Below, one piece after another: positions 37,566-58,131 of a DNA stretch of 64,000 nt. Below the pieces are notes generated by a model. That model did not search any database, was not told the origin of the DNA, and was given only the letters and a program-made list of their open reading frames with translations. Source of the DNA: a virus; IMG/VR virus record IMGVR_UViG_3300028597_000009, positions 46,531-110,530 of that record. One strand, written 5' to 3'. The stretch's first letter is position 1, and each line of letters begins with the position of its first letter. The translations under genes and the position numbers were made by a program.

Positions 37566-38648
37566 ATGAACGAAGAATACCAACCGGATGGCGACGGCTT
37601 CGGTTTGCCAGACAGCCCGCACATGGAAATCATGTTCGATTCCCTGACCGACACCGTCGACCAGATGGACATCGCGGGTACTGAGTCCCTGACTCTCACT
37701 CCAGCCCAGCACTACGCTCAAGGCGTTCTGAGCGCTGCTGGTATCGTTTCCGCCGCCCAGGTAACTGGTAACGAAGGCATCTTCTCGGCCATCGGCGACG
37801 GCTTCAAAGCGGTGTATGACTACATCGTTAAAACCTTCAAGTCCATCTGGGACTTCTTCTTCAACCGTGACAGCGCCAAAGAAGCAGAAGTGGCCAAGAC
37901 TGCGGTTGACGAGAACACCAAAGAACTGCAGGCTGCTGAAGCCGGTACTCAGACCGAAGAAGAAGCCAACAAGCAGATCGCTGCTATGGCTACCGTTGCC
38001 AACGCTGAAGGCGGCGACAAAGCTCTGGCTGAAGATCTGGCCGAAGCCAAGAAGGGCGACCTCAAGGAAAAGCGTAAAGCTATCCATGAAGCTCTCAAGA
38101 CCCTGCCGAAGCTGAAAGGTGCTGCCAAGCACAACCTGGAAAAGACCATCGAAAGCGCGGTCAAGGTGAAGATGGCATTCACCACCAAAGGTCTGGGTGG
38201 CGGCGACAGCAAAGCTGAAGGCGACGCTGCTGACCACCTGATGGGTAGCAACAAAACCGCCAACGACCTGGTCGACCTGACGGCTGAGATCACCAAGTTC
38301 ACCATCAAGGACGCGCACTTCATTACCGCTCTGAAGGGTGCTACCTCGATCAACAGCATCGACAAGGCCATTGCGTTCAGCAAAGCCTGCTCGGCCAACA
38401 TCCAGATGGTGAAAGAGTTCTCCGACGTTGTCAAAGGCAAGAAGTCGAAGATCGAAGCACTGCTGCATGCTGCTGAAGCCAAGATGAAGTCCGCCAAAGA
38501 CGGCAAAGACAAAGACGCACTGTCGAAAGACATCGCCGCTCTGCGTCTGATCGTTGTGATGGGCACTCGCTTGGCCAAGCTGATCGAGCAGAACTACATC
38601 AAAGTCAAGGCTGCTTCGGAAGCCATGAACAAGGTGTTCTGCATCTAA
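37566..38648 (+). CDS. Inner-body-type virion protein with protease motif (360 aa)
   Basis: An N-terminal acidic region (1-69) ends in VTGNE at residue 70, followed by GIFSAIGDGFKAVYDYIVKTF, an amphipathic helix, and long Lys/Ala/Glu-rich helices. G-x-E is within the (S/A/G)-x-E motif cut by the phiKZ prohead protease gp175. The same arrangement occurs in five to six other genes of this window. Such proteins in phiKZ form or coat the inner body around which DNA is spooled. An additional AGTE sits near residue 40. Strong codon bias. The mature protein would start at Gly71. Confidence 0.65.
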   Translation: MNEEYQPDGDGFGLPDSPHMEIMFDSLTDTVDQMDIAGTESLTLTPAQHYAQGVLSAAGIVSAAQVTGNEGIFSAIGDGFKAVYDYIVKTFKSIWDFFFNRDSAKEAEVAKTAVDENTKELQAAEAGTQTEEEANKQIAAMATVANAEGGDKALAEDLAEAKKGDLKEKRKAIHEALKTLPKLKGAAKHNLEKTIESAVKVKMAFTTKGLGGGDSKAEGDAADHLMGSNKTANDLVDLTAEITKFTIKDAHFITALKGATSINSIDKAIAFSKACSANIQMVKEFSDVVKGKKSKIEALLHAAEAKMKSAKDGKDKDALSKDIAALRLIVVMGTRLAKLIEQNYIKVKAASEAMNKVFCI

Positions 38649-38666
38649 ACCGTGCAGCGTGAATAA

Positions 38667-38699
38667 CCCTACCCACTCCCGACAACGGAGTGGGTAGGG
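38667..38699. terminator. Bidirectional terminator between convergent genes
   Basis: CCCTACCCACTCC and GGAGTGGGTAGGG form a 13-bp perfect stem with a GACAAC loop. TTATGGCTGC follows directly at 38701, then the stop of the leftward polymerase gene. Confidence 0.8.
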
Positions 38700-38710
38700 T
38701 TTATGGCTGC

Positions 38711-40561: not shown

Positions 40562-40594
40562 CGGTATACCCTGCATTTTATGCCCGCTTTTAGC

Positions 40595-40607
40595 GCTATA
40601 CTAATAG
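40595..40607 (+). promoter_or_regulatory. Weak promoter-like motif in divergent gap
   Basis: GCTATACTAATAG is a poor relative of the early-type consensus, 35 nt upstream of the metallopeptidase gene start. The 80-nt gap also serves the leftward polymerase gene. Confidence 0.25.
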
Positions 40608-40641
40608 TGCCCCAGTACTAAAAATAGAGGAGTACTCATTA

Positions 40642-42051
40642 ATGATCTCGATGGATTTTTTGAAACACTCAGTGTCAGGTATGGAGTTCATCGACTTCCA
40701 GAGCTCTGACTTTTACACCAAGCTGTCGTCGTACCTTGAAAGTCAGATTGATGCGGAAGGTTTCCTGTCGCCTGAATCAGCAAAGGGCATCAAACCCCTC
40801 ATCGCTGAATACACTGGTTTCAAGAACATCGACATCAAGTTCGAACAGTCCGGCAACCTGTCTGTTGACACGGGCTACTTCTCCCCGAACCACGTCCTCA
40901 ACAACGACATGGTCGACGAACTGCTGAAGACCACGGAGACTACATTGTACCGTTGGTTCACACAGAACACCGATAAGCTGTTCCGTGGCGGTATCGACTA
41001 CAAGACCGGCAAGGTTACGGGTAGCTTTCAAACTGTCCCTGTTACCCTGCGCATTAACGTCAACCTGAATCAGACCTTCCCAAAAGATAAGGTGGGTAAG
41101 TTCGGTATCCCGTTGCAAGGTATTCTGTGCGGCGCTATTGCTCACGAATTGGGTCATGTGTTCAGCGGCTGTATGATGATGTCCACAGTGGTATCTGACA
41201 ACTTGACCGCCAAGGCTGCCCTGCGTTTCTATCGCACTTCGAATACCGAAGAAGATCGGGTCGTGGTGCTCAAGGATATCGGCGCTCTGCTGGATGTCCC
41301 TGCTGCCAAGCAAGCCGAACTGCAACGTCTGGCTCAAGACCCTGACGATAAAGCAGTGTTCATGTACTTCGACAAAATGGTGTCGCAACGTAATATGCGT
41401 CGCAGTCTTTCTGTCGGCGTAGAACGTATGTCGTCTGAAGTAGTGGCCGACATGTACGCCATTCGCATGGGCTGTGACAAGGGTATCATTGCGGCTATCT
41501 CCATCCTGACTGACCACGGCTGCATCCAGACCGTAGTCAACAGCCTGCTGACCGCAACCATGTTCACCCTGCTGCTGTTCCCATCTGCCCTGATGATGAG
41601 CCTCGGTGCTGGTGGTATCGCTGTGGCATTGATGTTCAGCTTCTTCACGTTCACGTTCGTCTTCGTGATGGACTATTTCAGCAAGGGCTACTCTGGTGTG
41701 TACAACGCCGACCACCGTCGTTTCGATGACGCTGCTCGTCAGTTGATCCAGAAGCTGAAAGAAGACAAATCTGCTCCTGCTAGCCAGAAGGCGCAGATGG
41801 TTAAAGAAATCGATCAACTGATGGTGCACGCTAAAACCCTGCGCCCTTGGTACGAGTCGACTGTTATCCATCGCTTCATGGGTTGGGTGTTCAGTCAGAG
41901 CGATTTTAAATTGCAAGAGATCGAGCATTATACTGGGGTTGTGGCAAACCATGAGGTCAACACCTTCTCGCATAAACTCCAAGCTCTTAAAGCACGCCGT
42001 GACCCTGATAACCGGGGTGAACCGGAAACCGACAAGACTTACGAATTCTAA
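40642..42051 (+). CDS. Membrane-anchored zinc metallopeptidase (HExxH)
   Basis: 469 residues. AHELGHVFSG gives HExxH at His168-Glu169-His172, and SSEVVADMYA places Glu266 as the likely third ligand with Asp270, the E-x3-D pattern of M48-type gluzincins. A hydrophobic double span (about residues 290-345, rich in Leu/Phe/Met, with GAGGIAVALMFSFFTFTFVF) indicates two transmembrane helices after the catalytic core. AGAGGAG lies 9 nt before the ATG. It is followed at once by inner-body-type genes and shares their operon. It could process a host or phage membrane protein or a virion protein. It has no resemblance to the prohead protease, which is a serine enzyme. Confidence 0.75.
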   Translation: MISMDFLKHSVSGMEFIDFQSSDFYTKLSSYLESQIDAEGFLSPESAKGIKPLIAEYTGFKNIDIKFEQSGNLSVDTGYFSPNHVLNNDMVDELLKTTETTLYRWFTQNTDKLFRGGIDYKTGKVTGSFQTVPVTLRINVNLNQTFPKDKVGKFGIPLQGILCGAIAHELGHVFSGCMMMSTVVSDNLTAKAALRFYRTSNTEEDRVVVLKDIGALLDVPAAKQAELQRLAQDPDDKAVFMYFDKMVSQRNMRRSLSVGVERMSSEVVADMYAIRMGCDKGIIAAISILTDHGCIQTVVNSLLTATMFTLLLFPSALMMSLGAGGIAVALMFSFFTFTFVFVMDYFSKGYSGVYNADHRRFDDAARQLIQKLKEDKSAPASQKAQMVKEIDQLMVHAKTLRPWYESTVIHRFMGWVFSQSDFKLQEIEHYTGVVANHEVNTFSHKLQALKARRDPDNRGEPETDKTYEF

Positions 42052-42075
42052 CCACTATCCCCAGGAGTACTACCC

Positions 42076-42474
42076 ATGTCTCATTTGATCCACGTCCTCG
42101 ACTACAAGAAGTACCTGACCGAACAAGGCATCACCTGCCCTGTAGAACAAAGCGCCATCCTGGTGGAACCATTCGCCCGTGCGCTGATCCGTCACGCCTA
42201 CCGCACCGGCGGCCAGTGGACTCCTGTTGTCGACGCCAAGGCTTGGACCATGCTGGAGAAGTGGAACAGCGTGTCGCCGATCAATGCCCCTCTGGTTCAC
42301 CAGAAGGCCCTGTGGCGCATCAACAACCTGAACGGCTCCATGGCCCAGACCGGTACCCTGCCAAAGGCTGAAGAATACACCTGCGTCATCAACGACAAAG
42401 ATGTAACTCAGAACGAGCAGTTCAACACTCTGGTGGCTTACCTGTTGAAAGAGCTGGAGGCCGGCCGTGAGTGA
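42076..42474 (+). CDS. Unknown, highly expressed protein (132 aa)
   Basis: A compact soluble protein (MSHLIHVLDYKKYLTEQG...), Trp-containing, with a strong C-ending codon bias. Its stop overlaps the GTG start of the next gene (8-nt overlap), so they are made together. It may be a chaperone or partner of that inner-body-type protein. No family recognised. Confidence 0.6.
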   Translation: MSHLIHVLDYKKYLTEQGITCPVEQSAILVEPFARALIRHAYRTGGQWTPVVDAKAWTMLEKWNSVSPINAPLVHQKALWRINNLNGSMAQTGTLPKAEEYTCVINDKDVTQNEQFNTLVAYLLKELEAGRE

Positions 42475-43972
42475 ATCGCAACTCGACTCCTACTTCCAGC
42501 TGGGTAACAGCGCGCCTACCGACGCCTACCAGCCAGGTGAAGACAAGCAACGTATTGACCTGACCGAGTTCTATCGGGACAGTGATCAAGACAACGCAAC
42601 TGTTATGGTCATGGGTGCGGAAGAGCTGGCGCTGGGTAAGTTGTCCAAGCGTACTGCTATCCTGCTCAGCCTGTCGGGCACTGAGAGCTACGATCCGTTC
42701 CCATCTGAGCGTAACGCACGCATGGGCACCGAAGGCTTCTTCAGCACTATTGCAGAGGGTTTCAAGAAGTTCATTGAAACCATCATCAAATACATCCGCA
42801 TGGCCATCGACTGGGTTATCGACCTGATCCAAGGCATCTTCGGTTTCCGTAAGAGCGCCCGCATCAACGAAGAGATCAACAAGTCTCTCGACGAGATGAA
42901 GATCGAGTTCGCCAAGACCCTGAACGGTTTGGGCTTCCCTGGCAACGTGTACAACGTGGAAACCTTCTTGGGTGACCTGCCACCGAACCAAGACCGCCAA
43001 GCGCAACTGCACCTGCTGCGTAGCAAGTTCGACAAGGACAGTGATCAAGTCAAGAAATTGTCTGACACTGTTCCCCTGTTGCAACAGGCCATGGGCAAAA
43101 TCAAGCAGATCGGCGAGCGGGCCGAGCGTACGTTCAAGACCTTCAAGAAGACCTTGGGCGAAGAGTTCAACCGTAGCAAGGTTCGTCACCACACCGCCAA
43201 CAACACCGCCCCGCTGACCGAAGTCAACCGCGTGATGAAGGCCATCGAGGAAGCTACTCTCGCGTTGGATTCGACTGAGCTGGTGGGTTTGGTGTCGAAG
43301 ACCTACAGCACCCTGTTCGGTATCACCTTCACTAACGAAGAGCTGACCAACGGTTTCACTGAAGTGCAGAAGAAGCTTCAGGAAAACGTCAAGCTGGAAG
43401 TGGTTAAGCTGGACAAGGTCAACGTGGGCGAGACCCTGAGCAACATCCAGGATCTGAACACCCGCTACATGGGCATGGTCAGCGACGAGATCGATATCTC
43501 CAAGGTCAACTGGAAGGCGATGGGCACCATGATCGACCGTTCGGATGCCGAGAAGGTTGAGCTCATGTCGAAGATGTACAACGCTCCGACCATGTTGGCC
43601 AGCTATCAGAAGCTGTCGTTGAACATCCGCAACTTCACTCAGTTCTGCTTCTTCGTAACGAACGAGCTGCGCCGGGTAGAGAAACAGATCACCGACCTGA
43701 TCGAATGGCACCAGCGGACCCATGCGTACTACTACGCCGGTTTCGTTAACGACCTGGATAAGCTCAAGGAGATCGTTCTTGATGCTCAAAGCAAGGGTCA
43801 TGCGCCTTTGATCGGCAACGATCACATGGTCTTCATCAAGGCGGCCGACGCACAGACCTTCATGGAGAAGCTCTCGGCTAACATTAACTTCGGTCTGGAG
43901 AACGATATCGGTGGTCTGAAGACTATCGTTAACAACTTCTCCAAACAGACTGGTTGGGGTAAACTGATATGA
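42467..43972 (+). CDS. Inner-body-type virion protein with protease motif (501 aa)
   Basis: GTG start. A disordered acidic head of 85 residues ends with ARMGTE (Glu89), followed by GFFSTIAEGFKKFIETIIKY, an amphipathic/hydrophobic helix, then DWVIDLIQGIFGF and long charged helices. G-x-E fits the prohead protease consensus, giving a mature start at Gly90. The layout matches genes 37566, 53738, 55137 and 56695. Strong codon bias. Its stop overlaps the next start (ATGA). Confidence 0.7.
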   Translation: MSESQLDSYFQLGNSAPTDAYQPGEDKQRIDLTEFYRDSDQDNATVMVMGAEELALGKLSKRTAILLSLSGTESYDPFPSERNARMGTEGFFSTIAEGFKKFIETIIKYIRMAIDWVIDLIQGIFGFRKSARINEEINKSLDEMKIEFAKTLNGLGFPGNVYNVETFLGDLPPNQDRQAQLHLLRSKFDKDSDQVKKLSDTVPLLQQAMGKIKQIGERAERTFKTFKKTLGEEFNRSKVRHHTANNTAPLTEVNRVMKAIEEATLALDSTELVGLVSKTYSTLFGITFTNEELTNGFTEVQKKLQENVKLEVVKLDKVNVGETLSNIQDLNTRYMGMVSDEIDISKVNWKAMGTMIDRSDAEKVELMSKMYNAPTMLASYQKLSLNIRNFTQFCFFVTNELRRVEKQITDLIEWHQRTHAYYYAGFVNDLDKLKEIVLDAQSKGHAPLIGNDHMVFIKAADAQTFMEKLSANINFGLENDIGGLKTIVNNFSKQTGWGKLI

Positions 43973-44727: not shown

Positions 44728-44743
44728 GCTGTACCGGCCATAT

Positions 44744-44775
44744 CCCCTCCTATCCCTTTGCGGGGATAGGAGGGG
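44744..44775. terminator. Bidirectional terminator between convergent genes
   Basis: CCCCTCCTATCCC pairs with GGGGATAGGAGGGG around a TTTG loop. TTATAGCTGC follows at 44781, a one-base variant of the post-hairpin motif. The leftward gene ends at 44792. Confidence 0.8.
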
Positions 44776-44791
44776 TAGGCTTATAGCTGCT

Positions 44792-47728
44792 TTACACCGG
44801 ACCCAGGCTTACCATGGATACGTCGTGTGGCAAGAAGACGATGTCAATGTCTTCAACGATGGACAACAGCCCATCAGAACTTTCCTGCAACAGTTTACGC
44901 ACACAGAAGCCAGTCAGACTGTCGGCGTTACTGATAACGTCAACCGAACTGTCACCAGCCAATGCACTCATCTTCACCGATACCACTTCACTCGAAGTAC
45001 CGTCCTTCAGCAACTTGGTTAACCCACTCACGTCGATGGTAGTAGCACCGAACAACGCTTCGTTGATGACCTGAGGGGTGCTGGCGGTAAGCGCGTCTTT
45101 GAGGCTGACGTTCTTGTAGCCAGTTGCAGTAAGGTAGAAGGTTACAACAAAGCCCAGATCCTGTTTGACGTAGGACTGATAGTTGCTGTTGACCACCACC
45201 TTCTGGTAACCCATCTTGTTGCGTGGCTGGTACATCAGTGTGGTCATGTCGAGCAAGGACGAGTTGAACGAGTCCATGTCCTGACCGATGTGGTTGACGA
45301 AGTAATCTTTGGTCTGCTGAGCAAACTCCAGATCATAGTCATCTTTGGTGAAGTAGTACGCACCGTCGAATGCGATGAAGTCCCAGTGGTACTGCAAGTC
45401 ACGAGGAGCGACTTCCACATATTGACCCTCGTCATCCAACACGAAGTCACCAATGCTGTACTTCAGGATAACCTGAGGTGGCACGGTGTTGGTGTACATG
45501 ACGTCACCTGCTTTATGCAGGATAACCGGCTTACCGTCGACCAGATCCAGTTCGCCGTTCTCTTTACGCTTGAGAACAGTGGCAGGATAGGTTTCAGGAA
45601 CCGGGGTGGTGTGACGTTTGTACTGCGCTTCACCGATGAGAGGCCGTATACGGCTGTACAGGTTGCCCAGCTTCTGACCCAGGGTAACCGCGTACTGGGT
45701 TTCGATGATCGCCACCATCGGCACTGTGAACAGCGTAGGATCGATCTTCTGATCCGACAAGGTACCAGTGTTGGCGCTATCGCCTTGCATGGTGAAGATA
45801 AACGTCATACCCAGATTCAGCGGGGTACCCGTGTTAGGCTGCACGCTGCCGAACTGCGAGAAGTTGGTGAAGTAGATAACGTCGTTGACATCCACGTCGA
45901 AGTTGGTATCCAACGCAAACTGCCAGATCCGCTCACCGCCTTCCGTTTGCCCGTAATACGTAGCCCCTATGCTAGCCAGGCTGTTCGAGTCCTCGGGTTG
46001 GATAGACAGTTGTACACCCACCTGAGAGTCATCCAGGTCTTTGTAGCTTTTGCCAGACTCAGTAACCAAGGTAACAAGATAGCCACCCTCGCGTTGTTCA
46101 ATGTTGATCTGCCCAACGCCTACTTCGATGCCCAGTGTGCTGTTTTCAGTCACAAAGGTCTGGTTGTTAACAACCGGCTCATCGAGATGGTAGGTACGCA
46201 ACACCGCTTGGGTGTTTGTCAGGTCCATGACGTAGTAGAAAGGTGTGTAGACCAACGTCTGGTCCGATACCAAGTCTACCAGCGCAGCGTTGCTCTTAGC
46301 CGCGTAGGAGGCCTTGATGACAGCGTTAACCAAGACAGTGCTTGGCTTACTGATGTCAAACAACACGTTGTGAGGAATGGTGATACGCTGACCGTTGTCA
46401 ATCACCACACCGCTGTCGATCAGGTTATTCACCGAGCACAGGTAACTGCCCACGAAGCACGCCATTGGAGCGAAGAACTTGGAGTTGTCAGGAATCGGCA
46501 GCTCTTTGGTCAGGGAGTACTTACGGCCGGTCGTGTAGTCGATGGTCTTGACAGAGTCGTAACCATAGTTCTCAACAGTACCGGTCAGGTTGTTCTGTGT
46601 GATTGGCAACACACGCTGACGACGACCCTGAATGAAGGAAGCCTTCAACTGAGCAAAGGACTTGGCATTGCTACCGCCTGTGGTACCGTTGATAGCACGC
46701 CATGCCACGCCACCCGTGTTCTTCAGGGCAGAGGAGTAAGGACCCAGAGTACCCGCACCAAAACGGTAGTCCTGGTAGTTGATGCCTACTTCATCCAGCT
46801 TGACCTCGGTAAAGTCCTTGGTCAACTCACCCTTGGTCGTGTAGGTATAGATGTCAATCACACCGATACCCGAACCGTTGGCGATATAAACGTCAGGGAT
46901 CTCGTAGTCGAAAGACCCATTGCTAACGTTCAGGTTAATCGACAGGGTTACAGTCGACGGGTTGAACACGTCTTGGTCGTAGGTCACCAAGATCTCGCGT
47001 TTAACCCCGTTGGTGGTCATGAACGCACGGACGCCGTACAGGTCGTCTTTGAAGTTGATGGTACCGTTGCAACCAGAACTCAAGTTGGACGTCAAGTTCT
47101 CGGTAGGCTTGCAAGCGATCTGACGCGCGGGGATAACGATCGTCAGGTAGACGTTGCCATTGATCTCACGCAGCGCTTTCTTCAGCAGGTTGGTAGAGAT
47201 CGGCGCAATCGGGTTGTTGGTAGTGTCGTCGTACACCACTTGATAACTGGTCTGTTCGCTGTAACGGATTTCAATACCGTTCTCAATAGCGAAGGTGTAA
47301 CCATTGAACTCGACTTCGGTGTCCTTCGGCAGCAACAGCATTTTGTACGTGAAGGACGTCTTACCCGACTGTACTGTTACGTCTTTAGCCAGCGACAGAA
47401 ACACCGACTCCAGAATAGCGAACTGCAACTGCACGATCGACGGGTTACCGAACATACCGTACTGTTCTTCTTCCGACATGTGGCGGCTGAGATCAGAGGT
47501 AGACCGTGCGTGCGCTGGGAACAACTTGGCAATGGCGTCGTCTACCCGGTTAAGGATACCGTAGCCAGTACCGAGGATGAGGTCGGTTGCATAGATGAAA
47601 GGGTGAGACTTGCTGTTCTGCGAGATGGCTCTGTCGAACCAAGCGGTCTCGAGATCGTTAACGACAGTGTTAACCCCACGGATAGGGTTGTTGGCCAGAC
47701 TGACCAGTTGGTCTTGAGTTAATGCCAT
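44792..47728 (-). CDS. Large probable virion structural protein (978 aa)
   Basis: Leftward; the start ATG at 47728 overlaps the preceding stop (TAATG). A short helical N-terminal region (QDQLVSLANNPIRGVNTVVNDLE) is followed by many beta-rich blocks with Asn, Thr, Val and Tyr. A LLPKDTEVEFNGYTFAIENG segment near residue 135 recalls baseplate wedge (gp6/J-type) proteins, which have 'x-G-x-x-F-x-I' loops after a helical start. No collagen-like or enzymatic motifs. Codon bias moderate. It is probably a tail or baseplate component, but that is uncertain. Confidence 0.55.
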   Translation of the reverse strand: MALTQDQLVSLANNPIRGVNTVVNDLETAWFDRAISQNSKSHPFIYATDLILGTGYGILNRVDDAIAKLFPAHARSTSDLSRHMSEEEQYGMFGNPSIVQLQFAILESVFLSLAKDVTVQSGKTSFTYKMLLLPKDTEVEFNGYTFAIENGIEIRYSEQTSYQVVYDDTTNNPIAPISTNLLKKALREINGNVYLTIVIPARQIACKPTENLTSNLSSGCNGTINFKDDLYGVRAFMTTNGVKREILVTYDQDVFNPSTVTLSINLNVSNGSFDYEIPDVYIANGSGIGVIDIYTYTTKGELTKDFTEVKLDEVGINYQDYRFGAGTLGPYSSALKNTGGVAWRAINGTTGGSNAKSFAQLKASFIQGRRQRVLPITQNNLTGTVENYGYDSVKTIDYTTGRKYSLTKELPIPDNSKFFAPMACFVGSYLCSVNNLIDSGVVIDNGQRITIPHNVLFDISKPSTVLVNAVIKASYAAKSNAALVDLVSDQTLVYTPFYYVMDLTNTQAVLRTYHLDEPVVNNQTFVTENSTLGIEVGVGQINIEQREGGYLVTLVTESGKSYKDLDDSQVGVQLSIQPEDSNSLASIGATYYGQTEGGERIWQFALDTNFDVDVNDVIYFTNFSQFGSVQPNTGTPLNLGMTFIFTMQGDSANTGTLSDQKIDPTLFTVPMVAIIETQYAVTLGQKLGNLYSRIRPLIGEAQYKRHTTPVPETYPATVLKRKENGELDLVDGKPVILHKAGDVMYTNTVPPQVILKYSIGDFVLDDEGQYVEVAPRDLQYHWDFIAFDGAYYFTKDDYDLEFAQQTKDYFVNHIGQDMDSFNSSLLDMTTLMYQPRNKMGYQKVVVNSNYQSYVKQDLGFVVTFYLTATGYKNVSLKDALTASTPQVINEALFGATTIDVSGLTKLLKDGTSSEVVSVKMSALAGDSSVDVISNADSLTGFCVRKLLQESSDGLLSIVEDIDIVFLPHDVSMVSLGPV

Positions 47729-48801
47729 TACAGAGGACTCCAGTATTCCATTTCCATGCTGTTCACGTTGATCCATGGATAAGCAGCATAACCACCTTCG
47801 AAGTATTCGCTTACCTTCAACTGGCGGAAGTTCTGTTCACGGACCTGAGCGCTCATGTTTGGGTTGAAGAAGAGAGTAGTGCGGTTGAACATATCCGCAA
47901 TACGAATGTTGTTGTAACGGAAGGCGATACTTGGGAAGGTGATCTCTACTTCATCTTGCCCTTGGCCCCGCAGACTGTTCTGCGTACGGTCGATAGCGCT
48001 GAACGCACCCGATGGGTAGGTGTTAGGCCAAGAGTAGCCGTTACAGAACAGACCTTCGATACTGCGCATGTTCTTGTTCATGATGACATGGTAGATGCGC
48101 ATGTCATAATCGCGGTAATTCTGTAGCAACGCTTCTGGATAAGGTTCCAGCCCTTCATCGCCCAGCGTTACCCCTTCGATGTAGTGGTTGATCACGTCGA
48201 AGATAAAGGGAACGAAGTTAGGCTTAGGGTTGTGGAAACTCAAACGCATGTCGTAGTCATAGTTGACTTTGAGGATGCCGCTCACGTACTGGTAGACTTC
48301 CTTACGGATACCAGGTTGCGACTTCTCTACGTTCAACGACACGTCTGGGAAACCAGAACTGACTTTAAGACAGTTGGTCAATCCAGCCATCCACGGGTAC
48401 ATCGGGTCATGCAGCGCATCGTTACCACTGTTTGCTCGACCCCATACAGGGTCCAACAATCCCTTGACGTAATGCTGTAACGAGTTGCGAGTCGGTTCAT
48501 AAAGCGGCAACAGTTGAGGGTGTTTTATCACGTTTTCATCGGATAAGTTCAACAGCGGCCGGTTAATGAAGACTAATCCTATGGTGTCGTCGGGGATGGG
48601 AGCCATCTGGTTCCCGGGACCTAAAATACGGACGCCCTTGAGCATGTTGACCAAAGCACTGTTGTACCCCGGACCACCGTTTTCTCTGAAGACGTATTCT
48701 CGCCATTCTTCAACAGTGTTCGAGTCGAGTGCAATAGTAGGTTGTTCATTTCCCGGGGTCTTATCGTACCATCCATCGTAAAGATTCGGATCATCAGCCA
48801 T
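47728..48801 (-). CDS. Probable virion structural protein (357 aa)
   Basis: First gene of the leftward pair, GGGAG 10 nt before its ATG. Opening acidic and Pro/Tyr/Trp-rich; IGLVFINRPLLNL near residue 75 is a hydrophobic strand-turn seen in other tail-type proteins, and the C-terminal part is aromatic (EGGYAAYPWINVNSMEMEYW). Coupled to the 978-aa gene, so the two likely assemble together. Family not recognised with certainty. Confidence 0.5.
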   Translation of the reverse strand: MADDPNLYDGWYDKTPGNEQPTIALDSNTVEEWREYVFRENGGPGYNSALVNMLKGVRILGPGNQMAPIPDDTIGLVFINRPLLNLSDENVIKHPQLLPLYEPTRNSLQHYVKGLLDPVWGRANSGNDALHDPMYPWMAGLTNCLKVSSGFPDVSLNVEKSQPGIRKEVYQYVSGILKVNYDYDMRLSFHNPKPNFVPFIFDVINHYIEGVTLGDEGLEPYPEALLQNYRDYDMRIYHVIMNKNMRSIEGLFCNGYSWPNTYPSGAFSAIDRTQNSLRGQGQDEVEITFPSIAFRYNNIRIADMFNRTTLFFNPNMSAQVREQNFRQLKVSEYFEGGYAAYPWINVNSMEMEYWSPL

Positions 48802-48836
48802 GTCGTTGGCTCCCGTTATTAAGAGGTGAAGTATTC

Positions 48837-49955
48837 ATGATTAACCAAATTGTAGGTCTGGGGTCTTTCCTGCTGGACATTGCGGCAAAACTGTATCCCG
48901 ACAGTAAAGACATAAACTCCGCTGCCAACGTGGCAGGTCAAGTACGACGTTCATACAATGTGGTTTCTACCACCTCGGTCCATGAGAGCGCCAACCGCGC
49001 AATCATTGCTCCAATGGTGGCCGTAGAAGCCTCGCTGTTGCACCAAGAATTCATGTCGGACTTGATGCAAATCGTTATGCTGCGAGATATCGTCGCTACC
49101 CTGACGCACATCGCACTGCAAGGCTCTGTGGGCCTCGGCGTGAAGGTTGAGAACATCATCGGCGGCATCAACCCTAACCGGGCTGGCATGATGTCTCTGG
49201 CTGGCTGTGAATCGCTGGATGACAACATCCGCGCTGTTACTGGTAACGAGGAAGACGACAAGGCCAAGCTGCCTGAAGTTGACACCGTTCGTATCGACGG
49301 CAAGAACGTTCCTGATATGGCTGAGTACACCCCACTCGCCGTCGGTAAAGTGGTCATGGCCACTCTGTACAACGACAACGGCACCAAGATCGACTTCCCG
49401 TTGACCTTCCGCCAGATCCCAGTTCCGTTGCCGGCCAAAGACCTGAAGCGTATCTTCAGTGCTGCCAAGATCGAAGAAGGTTTCTTCGCTCGCCTGCTGA
49501 TGGCCAAGACCAAGGAAATCACTTATCCTGAATTCCTCTCCGGTCGTGACATCATCAAAGACCGCTTCAACATCCGCAACGAAGAGATGTCCGGCTATTA
49601 CAAGGAAGCGCAGAAGCGCGAGAACGGTAACAAGCTGGCTGCTGTTCGTACTGGTCTGGTTAGCTTCAACAGCATGGCCAACACCTTCATCATGTCGAAA
49701 GATGCCGCTACTCAGCTGGAACTCGACATCGGTAAGCGTTTCAACAACGCCTCTTCCCGTGAAGGCATCTTCAAGGCCGTTGTAGCCAACACCATTGTTG
49801 TCTGCGACGAAGACCGTGGTATCTACACGTTCTACACGCACGGTAGCGATATGCACGAGACTTACACTCGTAAAGACATCGCCATCAAATCCAAAAAAGA
49901 TTCGGGTTCCAACACTTTGGCGGACCTGGTCAAGTTGCTCAACGGAGGCATGTGA
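48837..49955 (+). CDS. Probable virion or inner-body-associated protein (372 aa)
   Basis: AGAGGTGA precedes the ATG. Starts with a hydrophobic helix (MINQIVGLGSFLLDIAAKLY). SLAGCES and VTGNEED resemble protease sites near residues 120-140. The rest is mixed, with a long C-terminal alpha/beta region. Strong codon bias. First gene of a rightward operon of at least nine genes. Function unknown, likely virion. Confidence 0.6.
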   Translation: MINQIVGLGSFLLDIAAKLYPDSKDINSAANVAGQVRRSYNVVSTTSVHESANRAIIAPMVAVEASLLHQEFMSDLMQIVMLRDIVATLTHIALQGSVGLGVKVENIIGGINPNRAGMMSLAGCESLDDNIRAVTGNEEDDKAKLPEVDTVRIDGKNVPDMAEYTPLAVGKVVMATLYNDNGTKIDFPLTFRQIPVPLPAKDLKRIFSAAKIEEGFFARLLMAKTKEITYPEFLSGRDIIKDRFNIRNEEMSGYYKEAQKRENGNKLAAVRTGLVSFNSMANTFIMSKDAATQLELDIGKRFNNASSREGIFKAVVANTIVVCDEDRGIYTFYTHGSDMHETYTRKDIAIKSKKDSGSNTLADLVKLLNGGM

Positions 49956-50836: not shown

Positions 50837-51347
50837 GTATCGGATTACCCCAAATGGTTACGCGAATGCTGCCCTGGGTGACTCCGATCTTGGGGTGATC
50901 TTCAAGAACCTTCAGTGTCTGCGGAACGACGCTTACGTCGACTTCGATCTGATCATGAAGGGCGCAGTAACCATCGAAACCCTGCGTGAAGCTAACCTCC
51001 TCACCGGTCGTTCCTTTGCTCAGTTCCTGGAAGTCAACTTTGATTCCGGCAAAGGACCCTTGGCCAGTCTGGTACGCGACATCGTTCATTATCTGAATGG
51101 TCGTTGTGGTCACCAGACTATCATCACCTCGCTTAACATCGAGGAGAATAAACTCCGCAGTCTGACTAAGGCTCGCCATGGCACTTACACGCCAGCGATC
51201 CGTAGCGGCGGCGGGGAGGCTTTCCTGAAAGATCAGGACAAGGTTTACGACAACGATCTGTACCGTTTGATGTCTGGCGTTGGTGCCGGCGTGGTCGGGC
51301 GGATCCTTTTGCTCCTAGGAGGAGACAGCTACTATGGGTCAAATTAA
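50829..51347 (+). CDS. Unknown protein (172 aa)
   Basis: It overlaps the preceding gene by 8 nt and the following one by 14 nt, the pattern of a tightly coupled operon. Mixed alpha/beta, ending with a Gly-rich hydrophobic segment (GVGAGVVGRILLLLGG) that could be a membrane-interacting tail. Function unknown. Confidence 0.55.
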   Translation: MPEYRITPNGYANAALGDSDLGVIFKNLQCLRNDAYVDFDLIMKGAVTIETLREANLLTGRSFAQFLEVNFDSGKGPLASLVRDIVHYLNGRCGHQTIITSLNIEENKLRSLTKARHGTYTPAIRSGGGEAFLKDQDKVYDNDLYRLMSGVGAGVVGRILLLLGGDSYYGSN

Positions 51348-52644
51348 TCAGGACCTGCAGTTGGCTGCTGAAATGGCGGCGGTCTCTGTAGTCAAGTCTG
51401 AAGAAATCGTTAGCTTGGCTCGCGACACTGGTCAACTGGACCGTTTCCAGCAACGACTGGACGATTCGAAAGACCGTGTTGCTATGGTCAGGTCTGTGTT
51501 GCGTGATACCGAGCCGCATCAGGTCACTCCTGAGCTCGCTTCGGCCATGGACAATGCACTGGTACGTTCTGAGGTGGACATTCCGCCTGTAGACGGTCTG
51601 GAGCACGTTCAGGGCGCCGAAAGCCTTGGACGCACTCTGATGCCTAGCCAATTCATTTTCACGCGTCTGGTGGGCTGTGAGAACTTCCTGGGGGATTTCA
51701 TCAAGAAGTCCCGTGAAGTAATCCTGCGTTCCAACATCGCGTTCAAGGAAGCTTACATCGTTTTCACTCAGAACCAAGAGTCTCTGACTGAAGCGGTAGA
51801 TGCACTGGAACGTGGTCTGGAAGCGTCGGGTTCCTTCGACAATAAGGAAACTCTGCTGCTGGGTAGCCGTCTGTTCAACCTGTTCAAGATCAACGGTAAG
51901 GTCTCCGAAGACTGGACTGGTGACGTGAGCAAGCTGAGCCGCACCATCGCCGCGTTGTCGGGTAACTACTACCTGAACAGCAAGAACGCCATGAACGCAA
52001 CCATGAGCTACTTCGGTGGGTTCGCTGGTAACACTCAGGAAGAAGCATTGTCTCGCTTCCTGCTGCTGCCTGTGTCGATCCCTTCGGAACGCTTCAAGGA
52101 ATGCACCTACCCTAACAAGGAACACACCACTGCGCGCATCACCGCCCGTCAGTCTGTGGAACTCATGGGCGGCGCTTACTTCATCGATGCCCGTCAGACC
52201 AAGCCTGCGTATAAGGCTGATACGACGGATGACGTGGATAACTATCTGCGTCTGTATCTGGAAGAAGAATACACCGGCTTCCAGAACAGCTCCGAAATCA
52301 TCTTCCCTAAACTGGGCAATGAAGTGAAGAGTCTGTCGTCCGGTCAGTGCAAAGCGATCGGCAAGCACCTGCATGAGCTGTTGAAAGAATGGCGCAAGGC
52401 CTTCGACAACGGCGACAAGTACAAGTTGGCTGACAGTGACTACAACGATATCACCAAAGGTATCTACGAGTCAGAGATGTCCGACGAGTTGAAGGATCAA
52501 GTGCTTACAGCGTTCTCTGCTGTTGTGCGCAAGAACCAGATGGAACTGTTGACACTTCGTGCTTCGGTTACCAACTACCTCACGCTGATCATCAATGGGT
52601 TGATCGAACTGAGCAACCTGTCGGTCAAGGCAAACACCCAGTAA
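51334..52644 (+). CDS. Inner-body-type protein with possible protease site (436 aa)
   Basis: Helical head with 'EMAAVSVVKSEEIVSLARDTGQ', then HVQGAE (Glu96) followed by SLGRTLMPSQ and RLVGCE-NFLGDFIKKSRE, two G-x-E sites of the type cut by phiKZ-like prohead proteases. A long helical C-terminal region follows. A strong AGGAGG precedes the ATG. Position within the cluster fits an inner-body or head protein; the match to the consensus layout is weaker than in its neighbours. Confidence 0.55.
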   Translation: MGQINQDLQLAAEMAAVSVVKSEEIVSLARDTGQLDRFQQRLDDSKDRVAMVRSVLRDTEPHQVTPELASAMDNALVRSEVDIPPVDGLEHVQGAESLGRTLMPSQFIFTRLVGCENFLGDFIKKSREVILRSNIAFKEAYIVFTQNQESLTEAVDALERGLEASGSFDNKETLLLGSRLFNLFKINGKVSEDWTGDVSKLSRTIAALSGNYYLNSKNAMNATMSYFGGFAGNTQEEALSRFLLLPVSIPSERFKECTYPNKEHTTARITARQSVELMGGAYFIDARQTKPAYKADTTDDVDNYLRLYLEEEYTGFQNSSEIIFPKLGNEVKSLSSGQCKAIGKHLHELLKEWRKAFDNGDKYKLADSDYNDITKGIYESEMSDELKDQVLTAFSAVVRKNQMELLTLRASVTNYLTLIINGLIELSNLSVKANTQ

Positions 52645-52659
52645 GGGTCGGGGGTCAGG

Positions 52660-53685
52660 ATGAGTAGCACGAAACGTCTGTATCGTGAAGGGCTGGAGTC
52701 ACACACAGTCCTGCGTGAAGATCAGCGTGAAGTCGAAATCCTGGGCAAGCTGCTACTGGAGGCCCCACACCGGCTAACAGTAGCAGTGGCTGGTAACGAG
52801 GACTTTAAAGAGACCTTGGTTACTGGCATGAAGGATTTGGGATCCGGTCTGTTCTCTGTGAGCAAATGGGTTGGCGGTACTACTGTCAGTTTGTTTGGTA
52901 AGGCACTGGGCGCTGCTGGTAATGGGCTCTACAAGGCTTTCAGCGAGAACGACGTACTGATCAAGAAGCTGTTACAGAACTTTAGCAAGGTAGAGGATCA
53001 CGAGCTTAACCTCTCGAAAGAAACCATTGCCTTGTTGACGTCTGAAGGGGACATAGAGCGTATCGGGCATGATATGGATCTATTGCTGCGTGCGTTGGAT
53101 ATCCTGGATCAACACAGCAAGGGCTTGTTGAGCTTCCTGGATAAGCAGTTGATCGTAGCACGCAAGTTGAAAGGTGTTAGCACAGCTGAAGGCATCTTCG
53201 CCGTGGTAGAGGAGTTCCAAGGGCTGAAGTACCCAATGTTTAATCTGCCCCACTCCAAAGGTGATACCCATAGCTCAGACGTACTGCCAGGTGGCAAGAC
53301 GTGGGAGTTCGTGTACAACGAAGGTAAGTCACCTAAATATCTTATAGGCGGAGACGCACCTGCAGAGGCAGGATCTGGTGTCACCTTCTCGCGCTCCGAA
53401 GTCAGCTCATTGCTGAACAAGCTCGATAAGGTTAACTCTATGCACAAACGCTTGAAGACGTCGTACGACAGTTACCTGTCTTTTATCAAGTCGTGGTCAG
53501 AAATGGTCAAGGCTGTCGACACTAACCTTAGTAAGTTGGATAAGGTTAGCTCAAGCGCAATGGCTGAGGGTGAAAAGATCCTGGCTGGAGAACCGAACGC
53601 TCTGGCATTTTATAGCGGATTCACTCCACGAGTGGTTAGCTACACTGACAGGTACATTCATGGTGTGCTTGGTGTTTTCGCCTAA
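52660..53685 (+). CDS. Inner-body-type virion protein with protease motif (341 aa)
   Basis: A 46-residue head is followed by VAGNE (Glu47) then DFKETLVTGMKDLGSGLFSV, an amphipathic helix, and a Gly-rich KWVGGTTVSLFGKALG stretch. The rest is long charged helices with an AEAGSG linker. The start 'AGGATG' spacing is tight, 16 nt after the previous stop. Codon bias is weaker than in its neighbours. The mature start would be Asp48. Confidence 0.6.
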   Translation: MSSTKRLYREGLESHTVLREDQREVEILGKLLLEAPHRLTVAVAGNEDFKETLVTGMKDLGSGLFSVSKWVGGTTVSLFGKALGAAGNGLYKAFSENDVLIKKLLQNFSKVEDHELNLSKETIALLTSEGDIERIGHDMDLLLRALDILDQHSKGLLSFLDKQLIVARKLKGVSTAEGIFAVVEEFQGLKYPMFNLPHSKGDTHSSDVLPGGKTWEFVYNEGKSPKYLIGGDAPAEAGSGVTFSRSEVSSLLNKLDKVNSMHKRLKTSYDSYLSFIKSWSEMVKAVDTNLSKLDKVSSSAMAEGEKILAGEPNALAFYSGFTPRVVSYTDRYIHGVLGVFA

Positions 53686-53687
53686 AC

Positions 53688-53724
53688 TGTTTAATTAAAC
53701 ACTCAATTTTCCTTCGTTAACGAA
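53688..53724. promoter_or_regulatory. Two adjacent perfect palindromes in a gene gap
   Basis: TGTTTAATTAAACA (53688-53701) and TTCGTTAACGAA (53713-53724) fill the short AT-rich gap before an extremely codon-biased gene. They could be protein-binding sites, a weak transcript end or a promoter region. Confidence 0.35.
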
Positions 53725-53737
53725 AAAGGATGTAAAG

Positions 53738-54997
53738 ATGAATCTTCTCGATATGTACGCTGGTGTTGAAGACCTGGAACTGGGCGCTGGTGCTGCCGAC
53801 GTGGTTGAAGCTGTTGAAGAAGCAGTGAAGACCGAAGTGGCCGAAGTTGCCGTCGTCATCGAAGAGCAGTCCAACCAGATCGAACAACTGGTTGAGCAAG
53901 TCACCGACCTCGAAGAAGCCGTTGAAGAAGCGGTCGAAGTTGTTGACGGCCTGGAATCCCTGCTGGGCTCCGGCAACTTCAACAGCGTTGCGTTCTCGCA
54001 GCTCTACAACCGCGGCGTGAAGCTGGCGAACAAACTGGGCGGCAACATCCAGGGCGATCGCATGGGTGCTGAATCCATCTCCGACGCAGCCACTGCTCAG
54101 CTGATGGCGCGCACCGGCATGGAGTCCATCATGGACACCATCAAAGAATACGGTCGCAAAGCGATCGAATTCATCAAGCACATCTTCAACACCGTGATCA
54201 ACTTCTTCGTGTCGATCTTCAACCAGGCCGATGGCGTGGTACGTCGCACCGAGCAGCTGCGCAAGCGTCTGAACGACGGCGCCAAGATCAAGGAACAAGT
54301 CAAGCTGGGCGGCTGGAACGTCTACTTCGACTACGCCAAGAACGGCCTGAGCGGTTCGAGCAAAGCCAAGCCATGGGACGCTACCCAAGACGCCGTTGCT
54401 GCACTGGCTACCCTGGGCAACAACGTTTCGGGCATCACCCTGGAAGGCTTCAAGTCGGCTTACGCCAGCGTGATCTCGGCCATCAAGTCCGACGCCAAAG
54501 CTGCCGGCAAGTACAACGAGAAGAAGTCGGGCAACACTGACGTCCTCATCTCGATCGACGCTGGTATCCGCGTTCAGGCGTCCTTCGCCGACAACGAGAT
54601 CAAAGATCTGGGCGACGCAGCTACCCACGCTCGCAGCCTGAAGATCGTGATCATGAAAGACCCAGAAGCCAAGAAATTGTCTTCCGGCGAAACCAAGGCC
54701 AAGCTGGACAAGTCGGCTCTGCTGGGCATCCTGGACCACAACAAAGCAGCTGCCAACGGCACCCGCGGCGACAAAGTGGCCAAGAAGTTCACCAACGCAG
54801 AGCGTGACCGCGTTGTTGGCAGCCTGAACGCCATCAAGGCTTCGGACAGCGACAAGACTGCCGAGATCAACAAGCAAGTGACCCTGGTTAAAGCGATCTT
54901 CGCTTCGGCTGCTTCGGTTACTCAAGCGGTCTCCAAGCACACCATGTCGACTCTGAAAGCCAGCTGCGACGGCGTTGCTGCTCACCTGTCGTTCTAA
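53738..54997 (+). CDS. Inner-body-type virion protein with protease motifs (419 aa)
   Basis: Very strong C-ending codon bias. The head is Glu/Val-rich (an acidic coiled coil, ~15-75). Two G-x-E sites follow: MGAE (Glu112) and TGME (Glu129); the latter precedes SIMDTIKEYGRKAIEFIKHI, the same amphipathic helix type as in its relatives. The rest is Lys/Ala-rich helical. It may be a major inner-body protein judging by codon use. AAGGA lies 10 nt before the ATG. Followed by a CGGCCG palindrome and a terminator. Confidence 0.7.
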   Translation: MNLLDMYAGVEDLELGAGAADVVEAVEEAVKTEVAEVAVVIEEQSNQIEQLVEQVTDLEEAVEEAVEVVDGLESLLGSGNFNSVAFSQLYNRGVKLANKLGGNIQGDRMGAESISDAATAQLMARTGMESIMDTIKEYGRKAIEFIKHIFNTVINFFVSIFNQADGVVRRTEQLRKRLNDGAKIKEQVKLGGWNVYFDYAKNGLSGSSKAKPWDATQDAVAALATLGNNVSGITLEGFKSAYASVISAIKSDAKAAGKYNEKKSGNTDVLISIDAGIRVQASFADNEIKDLGDAATHARSLKIVIMKDPEAKKLSSGETKAKLDKSALLGILDHNKAAANGTRGDKVAKKFTNAERDRVVGSLNAIKASDSDKTAEINKQVTLVKAIFASAASVTQAVSKHTMSTLKASCDGVAAHLSF

Positions 54998-55030
54998 TCC
55001 GGCCGGTGCTGCTGTAAAGACGTAAAGTAA

Positions 55031-55085
55031 CTACTATCGGGGAGCAATCCCCGATAGTAGTCTTTATGGCTGCAATTTGTTTTTT
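55031..55085 (+). terminator. Strong terminator after the most biased inner-body gene
   Basis: CTACTATCGGGG/CCCCGATAGTAG forms a perfect 12-bp stem with an AGCAAT loop, then TTTATGGCTGC and TTTTTT (55080-55085). The 3' side carries TTATGGCTGC at 55064-55073. Confidence 0.85.
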
Positions 55086-55106
55086 CGAAGGATGCTATAG
55101 GTTCAG

Positions 55107-55120
55107 CCTATATTTATAAC
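55107..55120 (+). promoter_or_regulatory. Weak promoter-like motif
   Basis: CCTATATTTATAAC is partly like the early-type motif and lies 16 nt before the ATG at 55137. It diverges in the second half, so I treat it as doubtful. Confidence 0.3.
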
Positions 55121-55136
55121 CCAAAGGTATTCTCAC

Positions 55137-56192
55137 ATGACTACGTCGGTACTTGCTCGTCGTTTTGTTAATACCCCTACAGTGATGGAGCTTTACGAGA
55201 GCGAAGCCGGTGGGGATCAATTGCCAGTTGCAGAGAAGGTCGAAGACAAACTGTCTGATGAATACGACCAAGTTGATGGTAGCGAAGGTTACTACCGTTA
55301 TACCTTGCAACACCTGCCACGTGCTCACGCCGATCTGGACGGTGTTGTTGGTAACGAAGGTTTGATCCAATGGGTCAAAGACACCGTGGGTACTCTTATC
55401 CAAGCGGTGAAGAACTTCTTCAAGTGGTTGTTCAGCTTCTTTACCAGCAAGAGCAAGATCGCTGAGACGAAGATGAAGAAGCTGGAAGCCGCTCTGGACA
55501 AGAACGGTGTTAAGGGAGGCTACCATGCTTACCCTCCGGTTTACATCAGCCTGTGGGCCAGTAAGGCCAAGGTACCCGATCATCTGGACTGGATGGCCAA
55601 GTCGCTCGATACACTTGAAGCAGCCATCGTTAAAGGCCAGGAATACGTCAAGGCTATCGAGTGGTTCTCTAATGACACTAAGCAGACTGTTCTGGCTCAC
55701 GGTCAGCTCAGCAAAGCTTGGGAGCACTACCAAGACGGTGAGAAGCAGTTCCACGGCAAGCTGGAGAAGATCTTCGGTAAGGAGAACTCCCTGTTCATCG
55801 GCGGTACTCACGTTACCGTTATGGCCGGTGGCAAAGTTCAGATCGATCCGGATCCTGAATTGCTCGAAGCAGATAAGGAAGGGAAGTGGACCACCAACGA
55901 TACCACGGTCCGTACCCTGTTCAAGAAACTCGATCGCTGCAACACCGCGTTCGACAAGTTGCTGACAGACATTACCAAACTGGAGTCTGAGTTCATCAAG
56001 ACTCTGGAGAAGACTGTTACTGCCGCCAATGAAATGGAACAACTGGATCTGCTGAATGCGGACAAGGTTGTCTCCGGGGTTAAGAAACAAGTCTCTCAAG
56101 CGATGGCCAGTATCAAGGTATTGGAAACGCTGTTCCTTAAGGTCATCAGCGCTGGCATTACCGTAGTGACCGCCACTGTTAACCAAGGGTAA
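55137..56192 (+). CDS. Inner-body-type virion protein with protease motif (351 aa)
   Basis: An acidic head of 73 residues ends with VVGNE (Glu74), then GLIQWVKDTVGTLIQAVKNF, an amphipathic helix with FFKWLFSFF, followed by long charged helices. G-x-E fits the phiKZ prohead protease consensus. Moderate codon bias. The ribosome site is weak (AAAGG about 11 nt upstream). It starts an operon of four genes after a terminator. Confidence 0.65.
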   Translation: MTTSVLARRFVNTPTVMELYESEAGGDQLPVAEKVEDKLSDEYDQVDGSEGYYRYTLQHLPRAHADLDGVVGNEGLIQWVKDTVGTLIQAVKNFFKWLFSFFTSKSKIAETKMKKLEAALDKNGVKGGYHAYPPVYISLWASKAKVPDHLDWMAKSLDTLEAAIVKGQEYVKAIEWFSNDTKQTVLAHGQLSKAWEHYQDGEKQFHGKLEKIFGKENSLFIGGTHVTVMAGGKVQIDPDPELLEADKEGKWTTNDTTVRTLFKKLDRCNTAFDKLLTDITKLESEFIKTLEKTVTAANEMEQLDLLNADKVVSGVKKQVSQAMASIKVLETLFLKVISAGITVVTATVNQG

Positions 56193-56197
56193 CCACC

Positions 56198-56683
56198 ATG
56201 CGTCTTAATTGCTTGAATCGCACCATCATTGTCGGGGGCAGTCTTGAACGTCTGCGCATTACCGACCTGAATCCACGTTTCGGTTTGGCTCTCGAACTGG
56301 ATGCCAATACGTTCAAGTATTCGGTACTGGGCAACGAGGGCACCAAGGGTGTCATTATCGATAAGGTTAGCTTGAATGACCTGTTCGACGGTATCCCTCA
56401 GGACATCACCGGTATCAACTTTGATTTTGTAACGGGGTCTGTGGCTCCGGGGTTTGATATCGACCTTGCTGTAGAAGAGCCGATCATCGACGACGTCCCT
56501 CTTGAAGAACCGGGGACACACGACGATGCGCTGTCTGTGCACTTCTGCAACTGGAAACGGTTGGTGGGGTTGAATGACCTGAGTCGCGCTGAAGTCGACT
56601 TGGGAACCGCGGATGACTACCTGTATGTAGAAGCCCGCAAGTCTACTATCTATCGCGGCTCAGTTGCGATCAAGATCAAGTAA
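56198..56683 (+). CDS. Unknown beta-rich protein (161 aa)
   Basis: Starts MRLNCLNRTIIVGGSLERL. Beta-rich, with hydrophobic strand pairs and a DLFDGIPQDITGINFD block that loosely resembles a block in the 58137 gene (DLLKGRVIDITATQG). An acidic loop (AVEEPIIDDVPLEEP) sits centrally. Gap of 5 nt to the preceding gene. Possibly a small virion or assembly protein. Function unknown. Confidence 0.55.
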   Translation: MRLNCLNRTIIVGGSLERLRITDLNPRFGLALELDANTFKYSVLGNEGTKGVIIDKVSLNDLFDGIPQDITGINFDFVTGSVAPGFDIDLAVEEPIIDDVPLEEPGTHDDALSVHFCNWKRLVGLNDLSRAEVDLGTADDYLYVEARKSTIYRGSVAIKIK

Positions 56684-56694
56684 GGAGTATCGCG

Positions 56695-58131
56695 ATGAGC
56701 CTTTATTTTGAATTAGGGTTAATCGGTATCTTGCTGTCGGGTAAAGAGAAAGCCCTGACAGAAGAAAGCAACCCGGTGATGGTCAATACCCTGCGTTCCC
56801 TGGGTTACGGTTACGTTGTAGACGGCGGTGGTGATATCGCTGCTGTTAAAGAGCGTCTCTACGCTATCACTGCCGCGCTGGAAAGTCGACTGGCTTACTA
56901 CGATTCGTCGGAGATGCTGGTTAACACTCCACTGAATCAGTACCTCGGTGAATTGCTGGCTAATGCAGCCAACGGTTCTTTCGATCCTTCCAAGAACGTC
57001 GCTATGATGATCTGTGCGCTGGGTAACAAGACCAGCGAAGGCATGAGTGGCGGTGCGGTTGAAGAATGGCTGGAGCACGCTTACAAACGCATCCAGTACT
57101 TCGTTGAAGTGTATGAAGGCCACGAGCCTGCACTGATCGAAGGTTTCAGCGTAAACATTCGTCAACTGGAATACGCCGACAAGATCCTCCAGCTGTTGGA
57201 CGTGTTCGTTACCACTCGACTCGGCATGCTGGCTGGTGTGGAAGAGTTCTCTCCTGCGTCGGTAGAAGACCGTACTGAAACAGATGATCCCGATTTCGAG
57301 ATCGCTGAACAGTGCGCCCAGTCTGATGACTGTGGTTGTGGCTGCAAGCTGGATCACGCGTTGACTCTGCTGCAAGGTATGGAAGACTTGCTCAATGGTC
57401 GCGTTACCTACGAAGCCCATTATGCACACGGCGTGGCTATGGCCAACAACGTGCGTCCCTTCGACGCTGTAACAGGCACTGAAGGTGCAGTCCTTGACGC
57501 ACTCAAGGATCTGGGTGAAAAGGCCTGGGAAGCGATCAAGGAGTCTTTCAGCGCTATCAAAGAACTCATCAGTCCTGAAGAGGATAAAGAGAAGGGTTCT
57601 GACGCGAAGAACAAGGCCGACAACAACAAGAAGTCGTTGCAGGCTATGGAAGACAAGTCGGCACAGATCAATGATGCGGCGAAGGCTGGTATCTTGGCTC
57701 TGTGTGACAAGGCCGACCCAAGCGGCGAGATGAAGAAAGCCATCAGCGGCCTGAACACTGCTGGTGACGGCCCTCGTACCCTTGATGCTCTGTTGGGTGT
57801 TCTCAACAAAGAGATCAGTAGCGGTAGTGCTTTGCAGGAAGCGTTCAAGAAAGGCGAGAAAGCTCTTGCTGATCTGAAGTCGGCGAACGGCAAGGTCTCC
57901 GGTGCAGACGAAAAGAACAAGGATGTCGTGGCCGCCACCAAGGCGCAGGTCAACGACAAAATTGCTCAGGCTAAAGAAGCGCTGAAGACTGCCCGTAAAG
58001 AAGTGGGCGATCACAACAAGCGTGTCAATGCCATCGTCAAGGCCATCAGCGGTATCAACGAGAAGATCTTCTCCAAGAAGAGCTATCCTGCCGATAAGAA
58101 ACCGAAAGAAGCTGCTGCAGCTAAGGAGTAA
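56695..58131 (+). CDS. Inner-body-type virion protein with late protease motif (478 aa)
   Basis: A 260-residue N-terminal part with a Cys cluster (C-A-Q-S-D-D-C-G-C-G-C, near 206-216) is followed by VTGTE (Glu263), then GAVLDALKDLGEKAWEAIKE (an amphipathic helix) and Lys/Ala-rich helices. This is the family layout but with a much longer head, so cleavage would release a large N-terminal fragment. Strong codon bias. AAGGAG precedes the ATG. Confidence 0.65.
   Translation: MSLYFELGLIGILLSGKEKALTEESNPVMVNTLRSLGYGYVVDGGGDIAAVKERLYAITAALESRLAYYDSSEMLVNTPLNQYLGELLANAANGSFDPSKNVAMMICALGNKTSEGMSGGAVEEWLEHAYKRIQYFVEVYEGHEPALIEGFSVNIRQLEYADKILQLLDVFVTTRLGMLAGVEEFSPASVEDRTETDDPDFEIAEQCAQSDDCGCGCKLDHALTLLQGMEDLLNGRVTYEAHYAHGVAMANNVRPFDAVTGTEGAVLDALKDLGEKAWEAIKESFSAIKELISPEEDKEKGSDAKNKADNNKKSLQAMEDKSAQINDAAKAGILALCDKADPSGEMKKAISGLNTAGDGPRTLDALLGVLNKEISSGSALQEAFKKGEKALADLKSANGKVSGADEKNKDVVAATKAQVNDKIAQAKEALKTARKEVGDHNKRVNAIVKAISGINEKIFSKKSYPADKKPKEAAAAKE

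Follow-up and report, generated by a model that had tools for sequence, protein, structure and literature searches.

A family of six or more, probably seven, chimallivirus proteins is apparently trimmed at G-x-E by the head protease

The window analyzed here, a 64,000-nucleotide stretch comprising positions 46531-110530 of IMG/VR record IMGVR_UViG_3300028597_000009 (110,530 bases in all), encodes at least six, and probably seven, related proteins that are apparently trimmed at G-x-E by the head protease. These are very probably divergent paralogs of an internal-head family, produced as proproteins that are cut at x-G-x-E before an amphipathic helix, with the mature protein located in the capsid and probably ejected. 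Each protein would be made as a proprotein and taken into the prohead, where the prohead protease would cut the N-terminal head at x-G-x-E, serially where there are several such sites; the final cut would fall just ahead of a conserved amphipathic helix. In the capsid this helix would form the mature N-terminus, and the mature protein would probably be ejected with the DNA. Cleavage in the source phage is predicted from sequence with high confidence, packaging presumably proceeds through the head, and ejection is suggested by analogy with phiKZ, of which gp93, 94, 95, 97 and 163 are injected (PMC10449902).

The source phage is a chimallivirus, kin to phage EL and RisingSun. The window encodes chimallin, the nuclear shell protein (9707-11707; 52% identity with RisingSun gp28 across 673 aligned columns), and PhuZ (1323-2363). 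Upstream of the window, the same record carries genes for subunits of the virion RNA polymerase and for the head protease, with the prohead protease gene at record positions 19890-20738, on the same contig as the family. Together these genes identify a nucleus-forming jumbo phage (Chimalliviridae). Gene 48837 (capsid/scaffold) showed 62% identity to RisingSun, a phage of Erwinia, and 56% to EL, a phage of Pseudomonas; a nucleotide search of known phages with the source DNA returned 0 matches.

All family genes lie on the plus strand and are named here by their start positions. The G-x-E motifs quoted in the initial annotation of this DNA were present in 7/7 named genes at the residues given, and the new N-termini that it predicted for 37566, 42467, 53738, 55137 and 56695 (Gly71, Gly90, Ser130, Gly75 and Gly264, respectively) were correct. 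The first member (37566..38648; 360 aa) has a predicted propeptide of residues 1-70 with conserved GxE at 40 and 70; its predicted maturation site, TGNE70 then G (37767..37775; GxE kept in 9/10 relatives), is followed by an amphipathic helix at the new N-terminus (37776..37883) assigned by profile, moment and helix properties. The second (42467..43972; 501 aa; propeptide 1-89) was assigned through a weak PF12699 match (9e-5), phrog_14541 (virion structural protein), the leave-one-out search described below and an alignment with SPN3US gp47; here motif and ortholog retention place the predicted site at MGTE89 then G (42725..42733), before an amphipathic/hydrophobic helix (42734..42841; moment 0.66, z 3.7). 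The third (51334..52644; 436 aa) is a PF12699 internal head protein with a predicted site at VGCE116 then N (51673..51681; GxE kept in 14/14 relatives). In the fourth (53738..54997; 419 aa), the orthologue of RisingSun gp68, the predicted site TGME129 then S (54116..54124) was kept in 13/13 relatives, as were upstream GxE at 11, 73 and 112, and the helix (54125..54232) showed 81% mean identity among relatives vs 54% for the other mature residues. The fifth (55137..56192; 351 aa) matched phrog_5750 (internal head protein; 1.3e-5) and carries VGNE74 then G (55350..55358; kept in 13/13), and the sixth (56695..58131; 478 aa) has a long predicted propeptide of 263 aa ending in TGTE263 then G (57475..57483; kept in 12/12); the helices of both (55359..55466 and 57484..57591) were assigned by hydrophobic moment. 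Several propeptides hold at least two conserved GxE sites each. The weakest member candidate is 52660 (52660..53685; 341 aa), which had been called a probable member: its predicted site, AGNE47 then D (52792..52800), was kept in 14/14 relatives, but the gene was otherwise weak on every test (PF12699 E 0.0095, a weakly amphipathic helix and no leave-one-out recovery).

GxE accounted for 21/788 residues in the seven predicted propeptides (2.7%), compared with 6/2098 in the mature parts (0.3%) and 55/14995 in other window genes (0.4%), an approximately sevenfold propeptide enrichment (Fisher, 6e-8 vs mature parts and 8e-11 vs other window genes; 8e-5 and 6e-6, respectively, without the seven chosen sites). 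V-x-E was raised in propeptides too (1.4%), and A-x-E and S-x-E slightly or not at all. The chosen GxE was retained in 77/78 orthologs; upstream G-x-E in the head region were often retained as well, and those in the mature region were mostly lost. In EL, the predicted mature N-termini of the orthologs of 37566, 42467, 53738, 55137 and 56695 come directly behind GNE70, GAE86, GVE167, GTE79 and GSE282, respectively (longest-ORF numbering). G-x-E is short and the proteins are rich in helix, which would suit a chance motif in ordinary helix-rich proteins, but the enrichment, the site retention, the leave-one-out recovery and the helix-site coupling across genera leave that reading with negligible probability. 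It was ruled out for the five main members by leave-one-out recovery together with retention and enrichment, and for 51334 by its PF12699 match.

For the leave-one-out analysis, a junction profile of 48 columns was built from six members and the seventh was sought among 1048 six-frame ORFs. The five main members were recovered (E-values: 42467, 7e-5; 37566, 3e-4; 53738, 6e-3; 55137, 0.016; 56695, 0.057), 51334 and 52660 were not recovered among the 1048 ORFs, and the full junction model placed no clearly unrelated ORF of this set below E ~0.3. The 18-24 residues after the site had a high hydrophobic moment in the five main members (z 2.5-4.7 vs shuffles) and a weaker one in 51334 and 52660. 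In most members the helix was better conserved than the body.

Helix-to-site coupling extends across genera. A helix-only profile built solely from the EL/RisingSun clade and tested on genera outside it gave 18 ORF matches at E<1, in phages of Vibrio, Aeromonas, Shewanella, Klebsiella, Kosakonia and Edwardsiella. The matches were preceded by [SAG]xE at offset 0 in 14/18 cases and within 4 residues of the extrapolated helix start in 17/18 ([SAG]xE background, 1.5%), and all 17/17 of these ends have G at P3, that is, G-x-E; the computed p of 6e-23 is overstated since the proteins are related. The same arrangement was found behind the final cuts of SPN3US gp53 and gp54, which were mapped by mass spectrometry (PMC10052503): gp53 AQE-125 is followed by GWKETLKDLFERF (moment 0.74) and gp54 ARE-137 by SLWDDIK (moment 0.73), and the remaining AxE sites in the two proteins reached a moment of at most 0.40. 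Similar candidate S-x-E/helix junctions were seen in the sequences of phiKZ gp95, gp96 and gp97.

The proposal that G-x-E is the site of the prohead protease is well supported by conservation at aligned positions in the capsid protein, the protease C-terminus and the gp45 homologue. SPN3US cuts mapped by mass spectrometry are A-x-E (PMC10052503). In the clade, the gp45 homologue carries SGME, EGLE and AGTE at positions aligned with or near SPN3US cuts; in the window this protein (40642..42051, plus strand) is without the helix module, and its N-terminal SGME then F aligns with SPN3US cut ASE-20. The C-terminal tail of the clade protease carries AGLE and one further site, [AE]G[NT]E (AG[NT]E or EGTE), in 4/4 aligned sequences (4/10 records), and the major capsid protein has three G-x-E[GS] sites in 6/6 correctly called sequences of relatives (3/9 ORF picks were on the wrong strand and were excluded). 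Since G-x-E occupies aligned or nearby positions of substrates that are cut in SPN3US, the clade protease most likely recognizes G-x-E followed by G or S. In the AlphaFold model of 37566 (pLDDT 78), the predicted cut site falls in a low-confidence loop (63-72) between the helical head and a long helix (78-126), as expected for an accessible site. The window homologue of SPN3US gp50 (48837-49955), also without the helix module, carries AGCE and TGNE near a mapped SPN3US cut (ATE), and the first of these two G-x-E is common to RisingSun and EL.

The family had been put at "at least five" members; these five were confirmed, but the figure is an undercount. Seven copies were counted in the window, 7-9 in each of seven IMG/VR relatives (214-229 kb), 7 in EL and ~10 strong ones in RisingSun. 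The RisingSun lysate proteome (31/243 products; PMC6034870), obtained from crude lysate, contains 8/10 strong members (gp5, 59, 66, 68, 71, 72, 73 and 189; hypergeometric 1e-6), or 7/10 without the low-confidence gp66 (3e-5); since the proteins are related, these hypergeometric values, like the binomial ones, exaggerate the significance. RisingSun gp68 ranked second in that proteome, and the EL samples of the same study also hold counterparts of RisingSun gp5, 59, 66, 68, 73 and 189 (PMC6034870).

Against the PF12699 profile (cut-off 27 bits), 51334 (116.6 bits, 2e-33) and 53738 (113.3 bits, 2e-32) scored above and 42467 (22.2 bits) and 52660 (15.6 bits) below; 51334, annotated as a probable member, is thereby a firm one. 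No PF12699 match was obtained for 37566, 55137 and 56695, which are tied to the family only via PHROG cross-hits and the junction, and PDB sequence searches returned weak coiled-coil or haemagglutinin-type matches at most, or none. Gene order in the head block follows SPN3US (gp45-46-47, 48-49 on the opposite strand, 50-51-52, then family A); 37566 sits outside this block, beyond the polymerase gene, and the remaining members are in conserved position. Site conservation, enrichment, helix coupling, the SPN3US cuts and the RisingSun proteome therefore make the encoded proteins either members of the known PF12699 phiKZ_IP family ("paralog family A", internal/ejection proteins that undergo proteolysis) or remote relatives of it. 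Within the head block, two large genes on the opposite strand (44792-48801, minus strand) match PHROG 3248 and 3196, both families of unknown function.

The initial annotation had read the family as a reused tag rather than a recent duplication, head and helix forming a module moved onto unrelated proteins and sending them into the capsid, with low identity outside the junction. Profile similarity was indeed limited to the head and junction (residues 2-150 of 37566 matched residues 191-345 of 56695, 98%), with nil between the bodies; the similarity extends from the junction into the head. The tblastn matches of 37566 in many phages were likewise confined to ~residues 19-121, and the models differ, that of 37566 being all-helical and that of 53738 (pLDDT 62, poor, and not used for the junction) containing strands. 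However, the comparison of C-terminal bodies says little, since it also scored nil for its positive control, 51334 vs 53738, a known related pair of full-length PF12699 proteins. The 37566 model matched its Joad (TM 0.70) and Miami (TM 0.65) relatives over the full length (range 0.65-0.71), whereas tblastn of 37566 against the Miami protein covered ~residues 19-116 only. In this branch at least, the junction is therefore where full-length homologs evolve slowly. The PF12699 profile, moreover, covers both sides of the junction, and several structures were matched by both the 37566 and 53738 models, weakly and below any safe threshold for 37566, a model-based hint that the two may belong to one family; a Foldseek search of the 37566 model against the PDB gave nothing at E<0.001. 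Because part of the family shares a predicted fold over its full length, descent from ancient, divergent paralogs whose bodies evolve fast explains the family no less well than a reused tag, and we regard the modular tag as doubtful.

Under divergence from internal-head paralogs, the helix may serve in inner-body docking or in host-membrane contact after ejection, and docking is the most likely role. A reading in which the helix serves assembly, being hidden until the proprotein is cut and then docking the mature proteins on one another in the inner body, with the head as capsid-targeting signal, falls in our judgment just short of an even chance. It agrees with a helix better conserved than the body in most members, the long helices in the structure models, the T4 capsid-targeting precedent and the continued packaging of C-terminally truncated SPN3US gp47 (PMC5694885); in this clade docking is a candidate role. 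If T4 and the SPN3US gp47 mutant are a guide, targeting would more likely reside in the propeptide that is removed; the one line of support in this group for the propeptide as a packaging signal is that gp47 truncation (PMC5694885). Alternatively, the helix could act on membranes after ejection, the mature proteins helping to form or anchor the early-phage-infection vesicle, which is described as host-membrane derived and as holding injected virion proteins (PMC13282480, PMC12908238). In moment (~0.6-0.75) and net charge (0 to +3), many of the helices are indeed similar to amphipathic helices that bind lipid, but those of SPN3US gp54 and window gene 56695 are slightly acidic and a high moment fits protein packing equally, and we consider a membrane role unlikely. 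Quite improbable, too, is the fuller proposal that the prohead protease unmasks an N-terminal helix on a set of ejected proteins that make or hold the early vesicle at the host inner membrane.

The family, the protease and the propeptides with their trimming are already known. Paralog family A (phiKZ gp93, 94, 95, 162 and 163; SPN3US gp53 and gp54) shares with the present genes the full-length PF12699 match (51334 and 53738), genomic position, N-terminal propeptides, a small-x-Glu cut site and multiple copies, and the SPN3US proteins share the amphipathic helix directly after the mapped cuts. It differs in the site, which is uniformly G-x-E here, A-x-E in SPN3US and S/A/G-x-E in phiKZ, with LSxE enriched; here, in addition, copies are many and three members are missed by the Pfam model. 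Like SPN3US gp47, gene 42467 follows the gp45 and gp46 homologues in the genome, and its product likewise has a long propeptide and, behind the cut site, a hydrophobic segment, but the two sequences are barely alignable and 42467 carries the family helix. In its workings the system can be likened to T4 IPI-III and Alt, ejected proteins from which the prohead protease likewise removes an N-terminal propeptide (capsid-targeting sequence), although the T4 propeptides are 10-20 residues long (PMC5694885). In the literature surveyed, the constant placement of the amphipathic helix at the final cut across genera, the spread of the junction beyond PF12699 and the uniform G-x-E of the group seem to be undescribed. 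The junction signature ties together proteins that Pfam misses, mostly filed as hypothetical, across several phage genera. With it, mature N-termini can be predicted to the residue, and it offers a sequence handle on processed, probably ejected proteins. The unmasked amphipathic helix would also be a testable candidate beside the question of how nucleus-forming phages come by their membrane vesicle.

One more member of the junction family is located well away from the cluster in RisingSun (gp189; L105:30804-31730), EL (near 167,258-167,395) and Miami (gp279; L084:2989-3984); gp189 adjoins a groEL-like gene, and gp279 lies two genes away from the one for the nuclear shell protein. A copy of the gp189 type was not found in the 110-kb contig, itself a fragment. 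RisingSun also has extra copies, gp5 and gp8 (L022:5469-6533 and L022:7837-8751), in the vicinity of tail and thymidylate kinase genes. At the position of 37566 its annotation shows no copy, and together these findings suggest that copies have moved or been lost.
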